DNA of 64,000 nucleotides from Candidatus Aquiluna sp. UB-MaderosW2red (lineage in GTDB: Bacteria; Actinomycetota; Actinomycetes; Actinomycetales; Microbacteriaceae), in NCBI RefSeq assembly GCF_900100865.1, contig NZ_LT627734.1:682001-746000 (forward strand), in the 5' to 3' direction. Shown piece after piece: positions 40,494 to 53,679 of the stretch; the first letter of the stretch is position 1, and each line of letters starts with the position of its first letter. Below the pieces are notes generated by a model. The model did not search any database, was not told where the DNA came from, and saw only the letters and a list, made by a program, of their open reading frames with translations. The translations under genes were made by a program, and so were the position numbers.

Positions 40494-40635
40494 TTTTTGC
40501 TCCTTCACCGGCAGGTACGTGCCGAACGATCCGTTGTGTAGGTATCTGACAATTGTCAGTTCCATAAGTATCGCACCCGAATTAGAATGAGGGGACCTTG
40601 TAACAAAGCTGAGACCAAATGAATAAGGAAATCAA

Positions 40636-41484: not shown

Positions 41485-41958
41485 CTAGCCTTCGACCTTC
41501 ATGGTTACGGCTAGCTGATTGTTATTTTCATTTCCTATTGCATCTATCAGGAGTGCCTCCCAGGTGCAATTGGTGTTTCGCATACCCTTCGGTAAAAAGC
41601 CAGTGCCTTCAAAGTTCAAGTCCGTGAGCTTCCCAACCCATCTGCCAGTCCAACTCGGTGAGCCGGGCAAAATTGCAAAGCTCGCGAACTTGGCTGAAGC
41701 GCCTTTAATTCCAAGATGGATAATCATTCTTTTTTCGCCATTGTCCATGCAAATAAGATCTGCCTGCTCCAAGTCGCGATCATCACTGATTGAGCCTGAG
41801 AAGCTAAAGACCTGATCGGCGCCTGAAATATCGAACTCAGTTTGGGAGACCTGAAACTCGCTAATAACAGGGGGAGTCGAATCGTTTTGGTAGATGAAAT
41901 AAGCGACACCGGCGGCGATTGCCAAAGATGTATAAACCTGCCAAGACCTAATCTTCAA
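41485..41958 (-). CDS. exported or membrane-anchored protein of unknown function
   Basis: The 157-residue protein starts with a short basic tip and one hydrophobic segment (VYTSLAIAAGVAYFIY), then a beta-rich extracellular part (VISEFQVSQTEFDISGADQ, SFSGSISDDRDLEQADLIC) with two cysteines that could form a disulfide. The strand pattern is like a bacterial Ig-like domain. No family recognised. It converges on the DsbA-like gene with no gap, so it may be one of its clients; this is only a guess from position. Confidence 0.6.
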   Translation of the reverse strand: MKIRSWQVYTSLAIAAGVAYFIYQNDSTPPVISEFQVSQTEFDISGADQVFSFSGSISDDRDLEQADLICMDNGEKRMIIHLGIKGASAKFASFAILPGSPSWTGRWVGKLTDLNFEGTGFLPKGMRNTNCTWEALLIDAIGNENNNQLAVTMKVEG

Positions 41959-42078
41959 TTTGCTCCTAAGTGTGCCCCAAGGCTACCTGCCCGTGGGGGC
42001 CATGTTCGCTAAAAGTGATGACCCCTAGCGCTAGGTTGAGCCAATAAAAGTTAGGTAACCAAAATAAGGAGGCTAGGC

Positions 42079-42385
42079 ATGGAATTTCAGTTTAGGGGTG
42101 GAGCTACAACCTATTGGGGTACAGCACTTTTGGGAGCGCTAATCACAATTTTATCCCTCGGCTTTTTGTACCCATTTGCACTTGTGCTGAATGAGCGCTG
42201 GCGAGCCAAGCACTCATTCATTGGGGGGCGTCAGCTTGAATTCTCTGGTTCTGCTTTTGGCTTATTGGGTCGGTGGATTCTTTGGTTAGTACTTATTTGT
42301 TGTGACTCTTGGAATCTACTCGTTTTGGGTAATTCCAAGACTGCAGAAATGGAAGTGGGAGTTCACAAACTTTGCTACCAAGTAG
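42079..42385 (+). pseudogene. DUF898-family membrane protein broken by a 1-base frameshift
   Basis: The gene starts at ATG 42079 after AGGAGG and reads well to about residue 73 (MEFQFRGGATTYWGTALLGA, AKHSFIGGRQLEFSGSAFG), all matching the small actinobacterial DUF898 (YjgN-like) membrane family. After ATT at 42295 the frame goes wrong (LICCDSWNLLVLGN). In the next frame, from 42302, the family's expected end appears: VTLGIYSFWVIPRLQKWKWE up to a TAG at 42383-42385. Removing one base in ATTTG (42295-42299) restores a 101-residue protein. As read, a chimeric 108-residue product ending at 42405 would be made. It may be a real mutation, a sequencing error or a programmed shift. Confidence 0.8.
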
Positions 42386-42476
42386 GTTTTTTGTACCTAG
42401 GGTAAAAATCCCTCAACTACAGCGGTAAACTCTCAAACTTGCTTCAAAATTGGCGGCTCGAGCTTTTTTTACTTAG

Positions 42477-43892
<1,416 letters not shown>

Positions 43893-43994
43893 CCAAAGGT
43901 CAGCTTCACAATTAGCGTTAGGGGCTTCATTTTGAGAACCACTTTGTGCTTTAGGGCCCGAAGTTCTTGGGGCTTGAGGCGATAGGAGGGGTGA

Positions 43995-44600
43995 ATGATT
44001 GAGTCATGCCTTGAGTGCGGGACGAGTAAAAAGCCAGCGGTTTGGTTTTGCGTGAACTGCAATGCTCTAAAGGATCTCTCGGGTGAGATGGCCGACCTTG
44101 ATTCCAGCGAGTGTCAAGCAGCCGAACCGACAGTCGCTTGCACAGAGTGCGGGAGCCATGTTTTTGAAGAATCCGAATCCTTCTGTCCAGCTTGCGAGTC
44201 TTTACAAGGCAGAAATCAAGCGAATTCTTACCACGCAAATTCAGGTGCCGAGCTCACTAACCAGGCTGATGCCAGACCCTCACCTCGAAAGGGCGTCAAA
44301 AAGACCCTCATAGTTCTGGGAACACTGCTCTCAATTTTCTCGCTCATTCTTGGGTCTACTCTCTCAGTGGGATTTGGCGGCAGCCCGGTGGACAACGATA
44401 GGGCTTGTGTTTATTTCTCTGACGGCTACCAGCTAGCCAAGTCGGAAAATGGTTCTGCCGATAGCATGGGCGCCTGGCGAGCAGCGGCAAGGGATGGGGC
44501 AAGCTTTGCCACCGGCCAGCTCGCATTTGAATTGCAAAGGTTTGCGGCCGGTTCAGATGATGGGGAAGCCATCGCGAGTATCACGCGGCTTTGTCGTTAG
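43995..44600 (+). CDS. double zinc-ribbon membrane protein
   Basis: The 201-residue protein starts after AGGAGGGG at ATG 43995. It has two zinc ribbons at the N-terminus (CLECG...CVNC and CTECG...CPAC, residues 5-75), a Lys-rich linker, one membrane segment (TLIVLGTLLSIFSLILGST), and an extracellular helical C-terminus ending CR. I do not recognise a named family. It lies just outside the integrated element, whose cargo holds two more zinc-ribbon membrane proteins of similar layout. Confidence 0.65.
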   Translation: MIESCLECGTSKKPAVWFCVNCNALKDLSGEMADLDSSECQAAEPTVACTECGSHVFEESESFCPACESLQGRNQANSYHANSGAELTNQADARPSPRKGVKKTLIVLGTLLSIFSLILGSTLSVGFGGSPVDNDRACVYFSDGYQLAKSENGSADSMGAWRAAARDGASFATGQLAFELQRFAAGSDDGEAIASITRLCR

Positions 44601-44707
44601 GGTTCAATGGTTTTAGGGTGAGAGGCTAGTAGCTACCTATCTGAATGCTGAAGTTCAGCCTGGCTTGTTGAGCTGATAGGCTTCCGAGCGTAACAAAGGG
44701 GATTTGT

Positions 44708-44773
44708 CCCCAGGCCGACTTGGCGCAATGGTAGCGCACCACTCTTGTAAAGTGGGGGTTACGGGTTCAAGTC
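44708..44773 (+). repeat. attL: left copy of the 66-bp direct repeat
   Basis: Identical to 53236-53301, from CCCCAG before the tRNA through CAAGTC in the T-loop. Crossover happened somewhere inside this stretch. The identity stops at 44774, where the T-arm 3' strand should follow. Confidence 0.9.
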
Positions 44774-44820
44774 ACACTCACTTCGTATCGCGTATTGCTG
44801 CGCAATCCCGCGTCGGCTCT
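44714..44820 (+). pseudogene. interrupted tRNA-Thr(UGU) copy at attL
   Basis: The first 60 nt match the intact tRNA-Thr exactly, including the TGT anticodon. Then 33 nt (44774-44806) intervene, containing a hairpin (ATTGC-TGC-GCAAT, with CGCG on each side). After this comes CCCGCGTCGGCTCT, nearly the normal 3' end (CCCGTAGTCGGCTCT). The fold would have a giant T-loop, so the gene is almost surely dead. A good promoter (TTGAGC, 17 nt, TAACAA around 44668-44696) lies upstream and is presumably the original host promoter. Confidence 0.75.
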
Positions 44821-44882
44821 GGGGTGTAGCAACTACTTGGTTGTAGGGGCTTTTTATGGATAGCCCAGGCAAGTCTTGAATT

Positions 44883-44900
44883 GGTAGCAGCTGGTAGCAG
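44883..44900 (+). repeat. left arm-type site (GGTAGCAG x2)
   Basis: GGTAGCAG occurs twice with a 10-bp pitch (18 bp in all) between attL and the integrase gene. The same 18 bp recur in the same orientation at 53040-53057. Paired copies spaced by one helical turn at both ends fit arm-type integrase binding sites. Confidence 0.7.
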
Positions 44901-44958
44901 AAACAGTATTTAGCGGGCTATTTACAGCAGTGTCCCCTCCAAATAACGGAGGAAAAAG

Positions 44959-46101
44959 ATGTCACAGATTACTAGGCGTAAAGCAACCGTATTCCCCTAT
45001 CGGGGCAAGTGGCGGGTGCAGTATGTGGACACTTTTGGGAGACAGCGCACCCAAACCGCGGAAACTCGTAAAGATGCTTACCTGCAGCTAGCTGAAATAG
45101 AAGGCCAGGTTCGTAAAGGGTTTCTAAACCTCACCCCAGAACAGATACCTAGCCTTGGTCAGTATCTGGACTACTGGCTGCAAAAGCGCGAACAAGAACT
45201 AAATCCAACAACCCATTGGTGCTACCAGTCTCACGTTGCCAATAATTTGAAGCCGCTGATGGGAAATTTGCGGCTAGATAGTGTTTCAGCCAGACAAATC
45301 CAGGACCTTTATAGCTACCTGTTAGAGGAGCGAGGGTTCAAAAGCGGCACAGTAAGGAAAGTGCACTCTATTTTGAGCTCAGCCTTCAAATTAGCCTTGA
45401 AACAAGGGCTAATTACCTATTCGCCACTTGCTGGCGTTTCCCAGCCAAAGTTTGAACAAAAGCAAATAGAAGTCTTCACAAAACAGGAGATGGAATGCCT
45501 CCTCAGGCATGCCTCTCAGAAGCCTTCAAAGCCCCATCTGAGGTGGTTACTCGCGCTTCGCTATGGATTGCGACAAGGGGAGGTTTTAGGTCTTAAGTTT
45601 GGCGATTTTGACCTTATTTCTAGGACTGTAAAAATCAACCGAACTGTCAATTCATTGCCTGGCAAAGGAGTGGTTGAACTGCCCCCAAAATCTAAGCACT
45701 CTCAAAGGACCATCCCGCTTGACGCGAAGGTAATTCAGCTAATTAGTCAAATACAAGACGGCAGCGGGTTTGTGTTTACTGCAGAAGATGGCTCAGCTTT
45801 GGAAGCAACAGTTGACCAGCGGCGATGGCGAGCATTATTGGTTGAATCTGGAGTTCGGCACCTGCCACTGCATTCAGCCAGGCACTCCGTTGCCACTCAT
45901 TTAGTTAATGGGGGAGTAAACCCTCGGATTGTGCAATTGCTGCTAGGGCATTCATCAGCTGCCTACACTCTGGCTACCTATGTCCACCCAAATACCCTAG
46001 ATATTGCTCACGCTCTGGGAATTGATAGCCCTGGTGTGGAAATACCAATGCTGTTAGCTGACAATAAGAGCGACATACGCCCGCCCAAGGGTGGAAATTG
46101 A
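44959..46101 (+). CDS. int: tyrosine recombinase/integrase of the element
   Basis: The 380-residue integrase has an N-terminal AP2-like arm-binding domain (residues 1-60, FPYRGKWRVQYVDTFGRQRT), a SAM-like core-binding domain (about 65-155), and the catalytic domain. All catalytic residues are visible: Arg205 (GLRQGEVLGL), Lys246 (KSKHSQRTIPL), His305 and Arg308 (LHSARHSVATHL), His331 (LLGHSS) and Tyr341 (ATYVHP). ATG follows GGAGG with good spacing. The gene lies 185 bp inside attL and reads into the element, the usual place for tRNA-targeting integrases. Confidence 0.95.
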   Translation: MSQITRRKATVFPYRGKWRVQYVDTFGRQRTQTAETRKDAYLQLAEIEGQVRKGFLNLTPEQIPSLGQYLDYWLQKREQELNPTTHWCYQSHVANNLKPLMGNLRLDSVSARQIQDLYSYLLEERGFKSGTVRKVHSILSSAFKLALKQGLITYSPLAGVSQPKFEQKQIEVFTKQEMECLLRHASQKPSKPHLRWLLALRYGLRQGEVLGLKFGDFDLISRTVKINRTVNSLPGKGVVELPPKSKHSQRTIPLDAKVIQLISQIQDGSGFVFTAEDGSALEATVDQRRWRALLVESGVRHLPLHSARHSVATHLVNGGVNPRIVQLLLGHSSAAYTLATYVHPNTLDIAHALGIDSPGVEIPMLLADNKSDIRPPKGGN

Positions 46102-46398
46102 TGCTCAGAGTCTACTAATAGCGCTGATTATTGAGGAAGGGCATAGGTGGCCTAGTAGCCGTTAACCGCAAAACCTAGGGGCCGATAAGGGGGTGCCACA
46201 CGCTGTTAGTAGATAAGAGAGGAGGCAGTAGCCAAGGCTCTGTCAAGGACAATTTTGGGCATAAGCAACTAGCGCTTGAGACGCCAGCCTTCACTTGATG
46301 CGCCTTGAGTAAAGCGACGCACTTTCAATGCATTGCGTGCATCAAAGGTCTCAGCTGGCTATGCTTTTGGTAAAGTTTTTTGGGGGCGGGGGGAGTAC
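46102..46398. other. about 300 bp without a gene after the integrase
   Basis: No credible coding frame is seen. The stretch has several short stop-rich segments and a purine-rich run (46380-46396) that is the ribosome site of the next gene. A segment GGCCGATAAGGGGGTGCC near 46180 resembles TGCCGATAAGCG near 53194 at the right end, but the match is short. Confidence 0.4.
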
Positions 46399-47772
46399 GT
46401 GAAAAACTGTATTGCATGCGACGAAGAAATTAAAAGCGCTGCGCTCCTGTGCAAGCACTGTGGGACGAAGCAGGACGACCCTAGCTACCTAGTTGCGGCT
46501 CAACCAGCTTTAGAAGAAGAAAACCAACCCAACAATCTTCAGTCAGTCAATGCTGATGAAGCGTCTGTGGGCCATGACCGTAAAGCTGAATCACCAACCA
46601 CAAATGATTCGCTTGATTTTTTCTGCCCAGATTGCCTCACGTGGCAATCTAAGTCCTGGAAATACTGTGATAACTGCGGCAATCTTATTTACGTTTCAAG
46701 CGTCCCCATTCCCGCTGCAAAAGACAATTCGGGTGATGATTCCTTACCTAGATTGGGCGAGGTTGGACCTTCAAGGTTTCCAAAGCGGCATCGCAAGGCG
46801 GGCTTGACAGTACTAGGGGTGATTGTTCTCATTGCCATAAGCGTCGCTGTTCTAAATCCATTCGGGCTACTTATCGCGGGCAGCGAGAATGCAGCTACCA
46901 ATGACGACGCTACCAAGACCAATTCTGAAGCGTCCTACGAGCTTTCGCCAGAGGAGATGCAAGCGGTCGCAGAAGAAAACAGCGAGCTTATTGATAGGGT
47001 GCTGAAATCCGCAATTGTCAAAATTACGGGTGACTATGTTGCTGGCGAGGGCTGTGCCGATGTTTGCTCGCGCATTTCTGTCAAGCTTGAATTTCGGTCG
47101 GATGAACTATACGAATTAAACAAGCTTTTTCTCGGGGGTCAATTCTCAGTTGTGGATTCCAGCGATAAAAGGGTGTTGCTTGAAGCGCCGATTCTTTCGC
47201 TGTCCACACTAAAAATCTTTGAAGAAGTTACCTTGGAGTCTTTTTATCTTCCTGGCGCTAATCTTGCCGCAAATATTCATATTGGCCCCTCCGATGAAAG
47301 AGACATTGATGCTTTTCTCAGCGCTAGTGCTCTCAGCATTAATGAGTTTGCTTTTTTGCAAGATTCGTCTTTGAGATTGGACAGTAGCAACAAGCTGCCA
47401 AGGTTGGCCAAGTTGGTGAGCAGTCTCATAACTAGTGGAATCTGTGAAAATTCAACCATTGAGGTTTATGAGAGTGAGACTTGGTGCACGGGTGACTTGG
47501 GTGGAGAATCCTACACGCTCATAGTCGCAAATACAGGGGAGAGTATTACTGGCCAAATTGCTTATGCGGCTGACTCGCCTGAGCAACTTGTGTTTGTGGG
47601 AAGCGGCTGGTCTTTCATAGCAGGGGGAATGACTTTATCTCCCAGAATTTTGTACGAAGTTGAAAAGATGGGAACCTTCGTGGTCTTGGGTGGACTATCC
47701 CTCTGCCCTGCACTCGGGGCGACTGAAGATATGCCGATGGAGACATGCTTTACGCATGCGATGAGCAATTAG
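46399..47772 (+). CDS. zinc-ribbon membrane protein with large extracellular part
   Basis: The start is set at GTG 46399, after a strong GGGGGAG, because the first zinc ribbon then begins at once (NCIACDEEIKSAALLCKHCG); an ATG at 46333 has no such site. The 457-residue protein has a second ribbon (CPDCLTWQSKSWKYCDNCG, about 80-100), a membrane segment (GLTVLGVIVLIAISVAVLN, about 135-155), then about 300 extracellular residues with four or more cysteines (GEGCADVCSR, GICENSTIE, ETWCTGDLG). The topology, cytosolic zinc ribbon, single helix, large outer domain, recalls TcaA-type sensors, but I cannot assign a family. It is element cargo. Confidence 0.65.
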   Translation: MKNCIACDEEIKSAALLCKHCGTKQDDPSYLVAAQPALEEENQPNNLQSVNADEASVGHDRKAESPTTNDSLDFFCPDCLTWQSKSWKYCDNCGNLIYVSSVPIPAAKDNSGDDSLPRLGEVGPSRFPKRHRKAGLTVLGVIVLIAISVAVLNPFGLLIAGSENAATNDDATKTNSEASYELSPEEMQAVAEENSELIDRVLKSAIVKITGDYVAGEGCADVCSRISVKLEFRSDELYELNKLFLGGQFSVVDSSDKRVLLEAPILSLSTLKIFEEVTLESFYLPGANLAANIHIGPSDERDIDAFLSASALSINEFAFLQDSSLRLDSSNKLPRLAKLVSSLITSGICENSTIEVYESETWCTGDLGGESYTLIVANTGESITGQIAYAADSPEQLVFVGSGWSFIAGGMTLSPRILYEVEKMGTFVVLGGLSLCPALGATEDMPMETCFTHAMSN

Positions 47773-47790
47773 GGCGAGGACTGGGGGCAC

Positions 47791-48243
47791 ATGATGAGGT
47801 GTGAATTTTGCAATTCACCTGCAAGTGAAGCTGCACGTTACTGCAGAGATTGCGGCGCCTCTCTTCGTGATGCAAAGAGAGCATCTGCCATCAAAGCTGC
47901 TTCCCCAATAAAAGCGAGCAATACGTCGTCTGCGAGCCTTGCAGGTAAGTCACCCTCGTTCTGGATTTCAATTTTAGGCTTCGGCGCAATCCTAGTGATT
48001 TTGGCAGGTGGTCTTATGAGTAACGACAGCGGCGGGAATGGCGGCAGTCAAGCGCCGACGTCTGCCTTCTACGACGCAGGTTACAATTTTGGTCGCAATA
48101 ATATTGGTAGAAATACGGACCGACAAAGTGCCTACAATCAATGCAATGGTATGGCCAACACGGTGAAATTCAACAATCCAAGTGCAACAAATTCAGAGCT
48201 AACAGATTGGGTCAGGGGCTGCATGGCCTACGTGGCGAACTAG
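47791..48243 (+). CDS. small zinc-ribbon membrane protein
   Basis: The 150-residue protein has one zinc ribbon (CEFCNSPASEAARYCRDCG, residues 4-23), a Ser/Ala/Lys linker, one membrane segment (FWISILGFGAILVILAGGLM) and an outer tail with YDAGYNFGRNNIGRNT and two cysteines (CNGMANT, GCMAYVAN). Tails of the type YxxGYxFG...C...GC occur in several uncharacterised actinobacterial membrane proteins. It follows the larger zinc-ribbon gene by 18 bp and is probably co-transcribed. ATG is preceded by GGGGG. Confidence 0.65.
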   Translation: MMRCEFCNSPASEAARYCRDCGASLRDAKRASAIKAASPIKASNTSSASLAGKSPSFWISILGFGAILVILAGGLMSNDSGGNGGSQAPTSAFYDAGYNFGRNNIGRNTDRQSAYNQCNGMANTVKFNNPSATNSELTDWVRGCMAYVAN

Positions 48244-48669: not shown

Positions 48670-49626
48670 TTGGGTGGTTTGCGGCACTCAAAGCACCAGT
48701 TCCTAAGGTGCGACAAATTGACACGTTCTTCCAGCGAATCAAAAGCGGGCAAAGAGCAAAAGAGTATTTACTTATCTACTTCCACTTCTCCTACCTCCAA
48801 TGCTGCACTAGCAAAAAAAGAGATAGAGAGTCTCAGAATTGCTATGTGTTCCTTTACTTCTATTAGGGGAGTGACTAGTTGCGGTATGAAACTCCTTCTC
48901 GTCAAGGTATCTCTCGGTAAACGCGAAGTTGTTGAAGTAACTGACCATTGCAAGAACAAGCATGTTTGTCCATCATGCATGAATTACCAGTACTGGAAAT
49001 TCGGAAAGCGACTTGGGGTAGCAATTGGTTCTTGGCTTGACCTTGGAGGGGCAGTCTTCACGCAGACACTAACTCTTCCCAACAGAAACAAGAAACTCAT
49101 TTATAAGCACGAAGACCTAGCACGAGTATGGACAGCGATGGGGAAGACAAAGAGGTACTCCTCCCTCAAACGAAAATCCGGCATGAAACAGAGCTTGAGG
49201 GTTCTGGAGGATGTTCTTGGCATCAAATATTCATTTCCCCACTTCCATTTGACTTGGTTTTTTCAAGAGCGGCTACAAATCCAGGAAATGGAGGCTTTTT
49301 CCAGAGAAGTTGCCCAGCTTTGGCAGCTTTCGGCCGATAAATGCGGAGTTCGTGGAGTTCAATCAGTGCAACAGTGGTCAGGCCCTATACAGAGTTCAAT
49401 AACTGGATACTGCAACTACCTTTTCAAGCACGGGTACTTTGACCTGAATTTCCAACCCAAGGACCCAGGTAATTCAAATAGGGGGCTAAAGCCACTTGAC
49501 TACCTAAGGGTTCTAGTGGCCACTGGGGATTATGAGATGCTCAAGACTTGGTTAGATTACGAACAGGCGACCTCGCATCGCCACAGAATCCAGCCATCAA
49601 AAGGATTCCAATGGGGGAAAGAATAG
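48670..49626 (+). CDS. rolling-circle replication initiator (Rep_1-like, HUH)
   Basis: The frame encodes up to 318 residues. It shows the cysteine pattern of pIJ101/pUB110-type Rep proteins: SCG (Cys71), then HCKNKHVCPSC (Cys94, Cys100, Cys103). The HUH-type metal motif is FPHFHLTWF (His191 and His193), and GYCNYLFKHG (Tyr247/Tyr250) is the probable nicking tyrosine region. The true start is unclear; the first 58 residues look non-conserved and an ATG at 48844 would still keep Cys71. Such proteins nick one strand and start rolling-circle replication. Here the gene sits in an element with an integrase, so the element probably replicates when excised. Confidence 0.8.
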   Translation: MGGLRHSKHQFLRCDKLTRSSSESKAGKEQKSIYLSTSTSPTSNAALAKKEIESLRIAMCSFTSIRGVTSCGMKLLLVKVSLGKREVVEVTDHCKNKHVCPSCMNYQYWKFGKRLGVAIGSWLDLGGAVFTQTLTLPNRNKKLIYKHEDLARVWTAMGKTKRYSSLKRKSGMKQSLRVLEDVLGIKYSFPHFHLTWFFQERLQIQEMEAFSREVAQLWQLSADKCGVRGVQSVQQWSGPIQSSITGYCNYLFKHGYFDLNFQPKDPGNSNRGLKPLDYLRVLVATGDYEMLKTWLDYEQATSHRHRIQPSKGFQWGKE

Positions 49627-52902: not shown

Positions 52903-53235
52903 CATGCCCACAACTTTTTCCATTTATCAATTCTGTTGGTATCGCAGACTGGGGGCGACCCAGGAGTCCTGCTCACCCCTTTTTGAGCGGGCTACCCCTA
53001 AAACGCCCCTGCAGCCAGGCTGCTTTGTCTTCAAATTGTGGTAGCAGCTGGTAGCAGGGTTTGTCTTTGGGGTGCATTAATGTAGAAGGTAACAACTAAA
53101 CATGGGGACACTGCACGCGGCGCTCGCTGCGACGTAAGAGGGGGTCATAGGGGGAGAATCCCCCTAAATCCAAGGGAAATGCTTACAACTAGGTGCCGAT
53201 AAGCGATTATCCATTAGGCTATGGCGGGGCTAAAA
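52903..53235. other. right-end recombination region of the element
   Basis: About 330 bp hold no gene. The stretch contains the right arm-type double repeat (53040-53057), the inverted GGGGACACTGC (53104-53114) that matches 44927-44937 on the other strand, and a weak promoter-like pair (TTACAA at 53184, TTATCC at 53207) before the intact tRNA. The 53126-53165 part is rich in runs of G and C. Confidence 0.6.
53040..53057 (+). repeat. right arm-type site (GGTAGCAG x2)
   Basis: Identical to 44883-44900 and in the same orientation. Lies about 180 bp inside the right att copy. Confidence 0.7.
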
Positions 53236-53301
53236 CCCCAGGCCGACTTGGCGCAATGGTAGCGCACCACTCTTGTAAAGTGGGGGTTACGGGTTCAAGT
53301 C
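53236..53301 (+). repeat. attR: right copy of the 66-bp direct repeat
   Basis: Identical to 44708-44773. It continues into the normal T-arm 3' strand and acceptor stem, so this side keeps the working tRNA. Confidence 0.9.
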
Positions 53302-53313
53302 CCGTAGTCGGCT
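53242..53313 (+). tRNA. tRNA-Thr (UGU), intact copy at attR
   Basis: A full cloverleaf is seen. Acceptor GCCGACT pairs with AGTCGGC, the D-arm is present, the anticodon loop CTTGTAA has anticodon UGU between CCACT and AGTGG, and the T-arm is ACGGG-TTCAAGT-CCCGT. Discriminator base U; CCA is not encoded. Its 5' part and upstream region come from the element side of the crossover, so the element may supply its promoter. Confidence 0.93.
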
Positions 53314-53314
53314 C

Positions 53315-53635
53315 TTATTTAGAAATCGATTTAGTTTCACGAGCTGGCTGAGCCAGCTGAACTACCAAGATAATCCAACCCACTACTGGAACCAGTAGCC
53401 AAAAAAAGTTACCCATTCCTTTGCCGGCGTCGCGCAGCCTTCTTGCAGAAGCGGCGGCCAGGGGAATAATGGTGATTATTGCGAGGAAATTAGAAAGCCC
53501 GCCCGAGATAACTCCCAGCGCAGCCGATGCAACCGTCAGGGCTAGAAAAAAATACCAATAGTCAGCTCGAGTGGTCTTTCCTGTAAATGTCGAGAATTGG
53601 GCAAATGCCAGCTTGGTCGCAGTCCAGAGTTCCAT
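53315..53635 (-). CDS. DUF805 membrane protein
   Basis: This 106-residue protein begins with the family sequence TATKLAFAQFSTFTGKTTRADYW and has three membrane segments and a conserved ARRLRDAGKGMGNFFWLLVP. DUF805 proteins are small inner-membrane proteins of unknown role. Its stop lies two bases from the 3' end of tRNA-Thr and converges on it. It is outside the mobile element and divergent from aspA. Confidence 0.85.
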   Translation of the reverse strand: MELWTATKLAFAQFSTFTGKTTRADYWYFFLALTVASAALGVISGGLSNFLAIITIIPLAAASARRLRDAGKGMGNFFWLLVPVVGWIILVVQLAQPARETKSISK

Positions 53636-53679
53636 GCTTAGGAGACTACCGTGTCGAAGTTAGGAGGATACTTATAGGC

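Follow-up and report, generated by a model that had tools for sequence, protein, structure and literature searches.

The DNA analysed here, hereafter the window, is a 64,000-nt stretch (C1:682001-746000; coordinates below are window positions) of the 1.66-Mb genome of the freshwater-type actinobacterium Candidatus Aquiluna sp. UB-MaderosW2red (W, or G000 among the genomes compared). Two copies of a tRNA-Thr gene lie on its + strand. The right copy (53242-53314) is an intact tRNA-Thr(UGU) recognized by ARAGORN and Rfam, and it is the single UGU isoacceptor found among the 42 tRNAs of the genome. The left copy (44714-44820) begins with 60 nt (44714-44773) that are 100% identical to 53242-53301; together with 6 nt upstream they form a 66-nt identity block (44708-44773, + strand, 100% to 53236-53301) that covers tRNA nt 1-60 and ends in the T-loop. 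A 33-nt insertion follows the T-loop, ACACTCACTTCGTATCGCGTATTGCTGCGCAAT (44774-44806, + strand), and is itself followed by a 14-nt tail resembling a tRNA 3' end, CCCGCGTCGGCTCT (44807-44820, + strand). A sequence-only reading of the locus had described this arrangement as a full-length copy split in its T-arm, and its coordinates and letters proved correct. Within the insertion is the hairpin ATTGC-TGC-GCAAT (44794-44806), the stem of which is lengthened by CGCG at 44789-44792 and CGCG at 44809-44812 to 9 bp, interrupted by a 1x2 internal loop. After the shared C, the intact gene reads CCGTAGTCGGCTCT, which the tail matches at 11 of 14 ungapped positions, nine of them consecutive (GTCGGCTCT); in its T-stem portion the tail is altered, reading CGC where the intact gene has GTA.

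Between the two copies lies an element of 8.5 kb. A tyrosine integrase gene (int) of 380 aa (44959-46101, + strand; PF00589, 4.5e-24) adjoins the identity block, starting 138 nt downstream of the left copy on the same strand. The direct repeat TGGTAGCAGCTGGTAGCAG occurs near both element ends (44882-44900 and 53039-53057, both + strand) and probably marks integrase arm sites; allowing up to 2 mismatches, it is present exactly twice in W, twice in G015 (Candidatus Aquiluna IMCC13023, one of the closest relatives of W) and once in G017, as would be expected of the arm-type sites of an attP. The cargo includes genes for two zinc-ribbon proteins (46333-48243, + strand; 46333-47772 and 47791-48243), which were not found at the G015 locus. 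The gene at 48670-49626 (+ strand) probably encodes a rolling-circle replication initiator, with HFHLT and YCNYLFK motifs recognizable by eye; no Pfam family recognizes its product, which is matched by the uncharacterised PHROG phrog_11698. An actinobacterial tyrosine integrase at a tRNA gene and a putative rolling-circle Rep recall the AICEs, a group of integrated plasmids of actinomycetes that includes pSAM2. We do not assign the element to this group, as a Pfam scan of ten proteins revealed no FtsK/SpoIIIE-type transfer protein; the reversed tRNA configuration and the sizes of 8.5 and about 6 kb also set the W and G015 elements apart from AICEs.

Upstream of the element, genes for a DUF898 protein, a Glu/Leu dehydrogenase and a zinc-ribbon protein occupy 41489-44600, between a 282-aa gene and the tRNA-Thr. 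This interval seems to represent a second block of cargo at this hot spot, because its counterpart in the element-free genome G011 is only about 570 nt long. An msiK RNA motif (RF01747, 60.2 bits) lies on the - strand at 40494-40550.

Origin and conservation of the split 3' end

The tail of the left copy is homologous to the 3' end of tRNA-Thr, because the element's own target tRNA fits it best of 42 and the element in G015 carries the same 47 nt (insertion plus tail). Compared with the 3' ends of the 42 host tRNAs, the 47-nt block scored 21 against tRNA-Thr(TGT) and at most 16 against each of the other 41, ruling out another tRNA as the source. That the resemblance arose by chance has next to no probability. 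Of 187-nt pieces drawn at random from the window, 0.27% hold an equally good 9-nt run, a weaker test that uses the window alone and counts only that run, whereas the spaced pattern TCCCGN{0,3}GTCGGCTC has just two matches in the 1.66-Mb genome, namely the left-copy tail and the intact gene. The sequence-only reading had made its case depend on conservation of these 14 nt in related elements, and all 14 are kept in the one other element known, that of G015. We therefore rejected chance similarity on the genome-wide pattern count, the conservation in G015 and the comparison of 42 tRNAs. Homology of the tail in turn supports the proposal that the ancestor of the attachment half-site was a complete tRNA-Thr gene with its 3' end and not a 5' fragment alone.

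Among 400 genomes of the family and 23 of the genus, G015 is the only relative with a close integrase (89% amino acid identity) and the 47-nt segment. IMG/VR, phage and plasmid records and the 400 family genomes yielded no further family members, and in GTDB contigs the sole close relative is NZ_AJKR01000001.1, which is G015 itself. Its element, of about 6.2 kb, sits at the same tRNA-Thr in the same arrangement with different cargo. The 47-nt segment is identical at 46 of 47 positions (32 of 33 in the insertion), the one change falling in the hairpin loop, and conservation falls off at the end of the tRNA-like 3' end: the next 138 nt align with 104/141 identities (74%) and the start of int with 117/142 (82%). 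The contrast between the 47 nt and the next 138 has a Fisher p of 1e-4, and for the tail alone p=0.018. The segment thus accompanies the same integrase from one species to another, in agreement with the earlier suggestion that it is attachment-site DNA of the element. With two complete elements known, this conservation amounts to one comparison, and recombination of att blocks could mimic selection on the 47 nt.

What the 47 nt do is a separate matter from how they arose. They could be a neutral relic of the whole captured tRNA-Thr gene, the left 3' half having become redundant and the 33 nt and tail decaying without function; such a relic would leave the attL anatomy set out below unchanged and would differ in the role of the 47 nt alone. 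The T-arm broken by the insertion, the altered T-stem part of the tail, the folding energies equal to those of shuffles and the restriction of the comparison to two elements all agree with neutral decay, although 46 of 47 positions kept across two species, next to DNA at 74% and an int start at 82%, do not, and we regard this view as a credible but unlikely one.

The opposite possibility is that the left copy makes a functional RNA. As a tRNA it appears to be dead by two programs: ARAGORN calls no tRNA there, and the Rfam tRNA model scores it at 27.7 bits over positions 8-63 only, below the 29-bit cut-off and against 71.9 bits for the right copy. The sequence-only reading had raised the idea of a decoy RNA, which found no positive support, the folding energy of the left copy being equal to that of shuffles. 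Nor did the insertion hairpin turn out to be an energetically exceptional RNA, with z scores (-1.2 and -0.7) that match shuffles. No intrinsic terminator was found in the left copy on the + strand. It is nevertheless conceivable that the host promoter drives a tRNA-like RNA with a 6-bp acceptor, intact D and anticodon arms and an enlarged T-arm that acts as a decoy for, or a regulator of, such proteins as threonyl-tRNA synthetase or the enzymes that process tRNAs. Conservation ending at the tRNA-like 3' end, six of seven acceptor pairs kept and a host promoter retained upstream would suit such an RNA. Against it, folding z scores are -0.7 and -1.4, the acceptor stem is dropped by the Rfam tRNA model and the sole change between the elements, sitting in a loop, tests no pair; we consider it improbable. 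Because the 47 nt are conserved yet lack support as a decoy RNA, their role would lie either in DNA, as an attachment site, or in RNA, as an int leader, and we infer that they are conserved att/int-leader DNA, part of attP and/or a leader of int transcribed from the tRNA promoter. As a repeat elsewhere, the 33-nt hairpin gave weak matches in G019 and G013 inside a glucose-6-phosphate isomerase-like gene, which we took as chance.

Proposed promoter exchange and integration

The two copies are preceded by different upstream regions. That of the left copy (44640-44707, + strand) is of the host's own type, with GAG-CTGATAGGCTTCC resembling the upstream region of element-free G011. That of the right copy (53147-53241, + strand) is borne by the element, with 96% identity to the G015 element, and belongs to a type shared by G015, G012, G017, G016 and G001. 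The 130 bp at the right end of W are 98% identical to G012, though core genes between the species are near 70% (DNA). In G011, a single tRNA-Thr lies between the same neighbours behind a promoter of the W left type (upstream homology is short) and is continuous with the right flank of W (53239-53636, 70%). Together, the promoter types and the continuity of the right flank imply that the left junction consists of host promoter, tRNA 5' part and element, and the right junction of element promoter, tRNA 5' part and host 3' end, so that the 5' part of the intact gene comes from the element side, while host DNA supplies its 3' end and the flank beyond.

We conclude, with a probability of roughly three in four, that 44714-44820 is the attL of an 8.5-kb tRNA-Thr(UGU)-targeting element whose attP holds a nearly whole but split tRNA-Thr gene. 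The junction anatomy, the distinction between host and element promoters and the 47-nt conservation in two species are read directly from the sequences; the reaction itself can be reconstructed as follows. In the excised circle, attP would consist of the element promoter, tRNA 1-60, the 33-nt hairpin insert and the 14-nt tRNA 3' end. Recombination inside the shared 66 bp would place the insert and tail behind the host promoter and tRNA 1-60, giving a dead tRNA copy that runs into int, and would put the host 3' end after the element promoter and the 5' part of the tRNA, giving a working gene.

The crossover evidently lies within or at the edge of 44708-44773, and sequence by itself places it no more narrowly than somewhere in this 66-bp block. 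It would most likely occur at the T-loop, where TTCAAGT and the ACGGG/CCCGT arms on either side would suit inverted core sites flanking a 7-bp overlap. At tRNA position 7 and a D-loop indel, both W copies carry W-type bases despite the G015-type right promoter; since a single crossover in the T-loop would not yield W-type bases in both copies, the model has to add gene conversion or a previous cycle in a host resembling W. Capture by the element also appears to have extended beyond the gene to about 95 bp of the host sequence that precedes it, because the native upstream regions of G001 and G016 align with the element right end, starting at about 53147. The sequence-only reading had the insertion arise later than the descent from a whole tRNA gene; this order of events found no support, as the search turned up no member of the family with an unbroken attP.

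A different route to the same pair of copies is the tRNA-dependent lysogeny of some mycobacteriophages, in which integration proceeds through a core of roughly 10 bp and the phage carries a separate tRNA (PMC10865867). Applied here, a short core would have destroyed the host tRNA and a complete element-borne tRNA would substitute for it. The two cases are alike in that integration inactivates a copy of the host tRNA, with element DNA contributing to its supply. In W, the dead left copy, the promoter that the element brings to the working gene and the 9-nt GTCGGCTCT match found at both ends would fit this route. However, the shared block is 66 bp long and would rebuild an intact tRNA at the right junction rather than leaving a separate element tRNA, and the working gene passes into host flank, beyond which no second 3' fragment follows. 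If GTCGGCTCT were the crossover site, the insert would moreover be host DNA, yet the insert is common to elements in two species, and we consider this route very improbable.

A repeat joining the element ends

The two ends of the element also share an inverted repeat, with a left arm GCAGTGTCCCC (44927-44937, + strand) complementary to a right arm GGGGACACTGC (53104-53114, + strand). The left arm abuts a hairpin, CCTCC-AAATAAC-GGAGG (44936-44952, + strand; also in G015), that covers the ribosome-binding site of int. The counterpart in G015 is 13 nt long (L023 7470-7482 and 13322-13334, right-end AGGAAGTTCTGCA), against 11 nt in W; its letters differ with complementarity kept, and cross-pairs between W and G015 reach only 6 and 8 nt. 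Shuffles reached 11 nt in 0.1% of cases (W) and 10 nt in 0.23% (G015). Letters that change while complementarity is maintained point to a repeat that acts by base pairing, not protein recognition.

We tentatively propose, as a speculative and rather doubtful extension of the main reading, that the split-tRNA attP serves as the leader of int and that the element carries an RNA switch sensing whether it is circular. The right-end sequence would share a transcript with its nearby complement at the int ribosome-binding site in the circle alone, and its pairing there would open the hairpin that conceals this site. In the predicted circle-junction RNA, the repeat pairs at 0.94 and 0.86, and the concealing hairpin weakens from 0.96 to 0.63 in W and from 0.97 to 0.43 in G015. 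Such a switch would need another promoter, because the tRNA promoter lies downstream of the right repeat arm.

In ICEKp1, int is transcribed from a tRNA promoter ahead of it, with attenuating leader stem-loops and state-dependent promoter switching (PMC13023037). The W element is similar in that int follows a tRNA promoter in the same orientation and has leader stem-loops; unlike in ICEKp1, where the int-adjacent tRNA stays functional, the int-adjacent tRNA in W is a dead copy.

Known systems and traces in related genomes

The 5'-fragment configuration is already known and is rare, a 5' tDNA fragment having been recorded in 159 of 3919 islands by Islander (PMC4383910). The W locus has the features of these islands: an intact tRNA gene and a displaced 5' fragment with the island between them, a tyrosine integrase gene between tRNA and fragment, the fragment upstream in the same orientation, lengths (8.5 kb, and about 6.2 kb in G015) within 2-200 kb and an uninterrupted site in element-free G011, where upstream homology is short. 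It differs from them in that the displaced copy adds the tRNA 3' end beyond a conserved 33-nt hairpin insert, and this 3' end after the insert implies that attP holds nearly the whole gene plus promoter. In the literature searched, we found no counterpart of an attP that holds a whole but split gene together with a conserved hairpin insert.

Bacterial tRNA genes keep their original promoter after integration with very few exceptions, according to a review that describes the pTN3-like archaeal integrases, with attB in the 5' half of the tRNA, as the other case (PMC8371274). As with these integrases, the rebuilt tRNA in W would be expressed from an element-side promoter, which is seldom seen in bacteria (PMC8371274). 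The W element differs in being bacterial, in having an intact int unsplit by attP and in a promoter that resembles a captured tRNA promoter, not an integrase promoter. Nearly all tRNA-targeting elements rebuild the 3' end and leave the promoter untouched, whereas this element supplies its own promoter to what is apparently the sole host tRNA-Thr(UGU) gene and leaves the original host promoter driving a dead copy ahead of int. If this is true, losing the element in any way other than clean excision could deprive the host of an essential tRNA, thereby tying the host to the element.

Right ends of the same family, lacking an integrase, lie upstream of tRNA-Thr in G017 (two, at L025 7728-7812 and 8090-8342) and in G012 (L026 7918-8047). 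They are possible scars of lost elements whose promoter stayed on the tRNA, and the presence of the same right end at this position in other species of the genus suggests that promoter swaps may leave lasting marks. In G001 (L024 11749-13402), two intact tRNA-Thr genes stand about 1.5 kb apart, and the DNA between them is made up of stretches of a G022-type right flank (170 nt) and a G022-type left flank (1.2 kb) in circularly permuted order, the left-flank portion carrying a cysteine-synthase-like gene.
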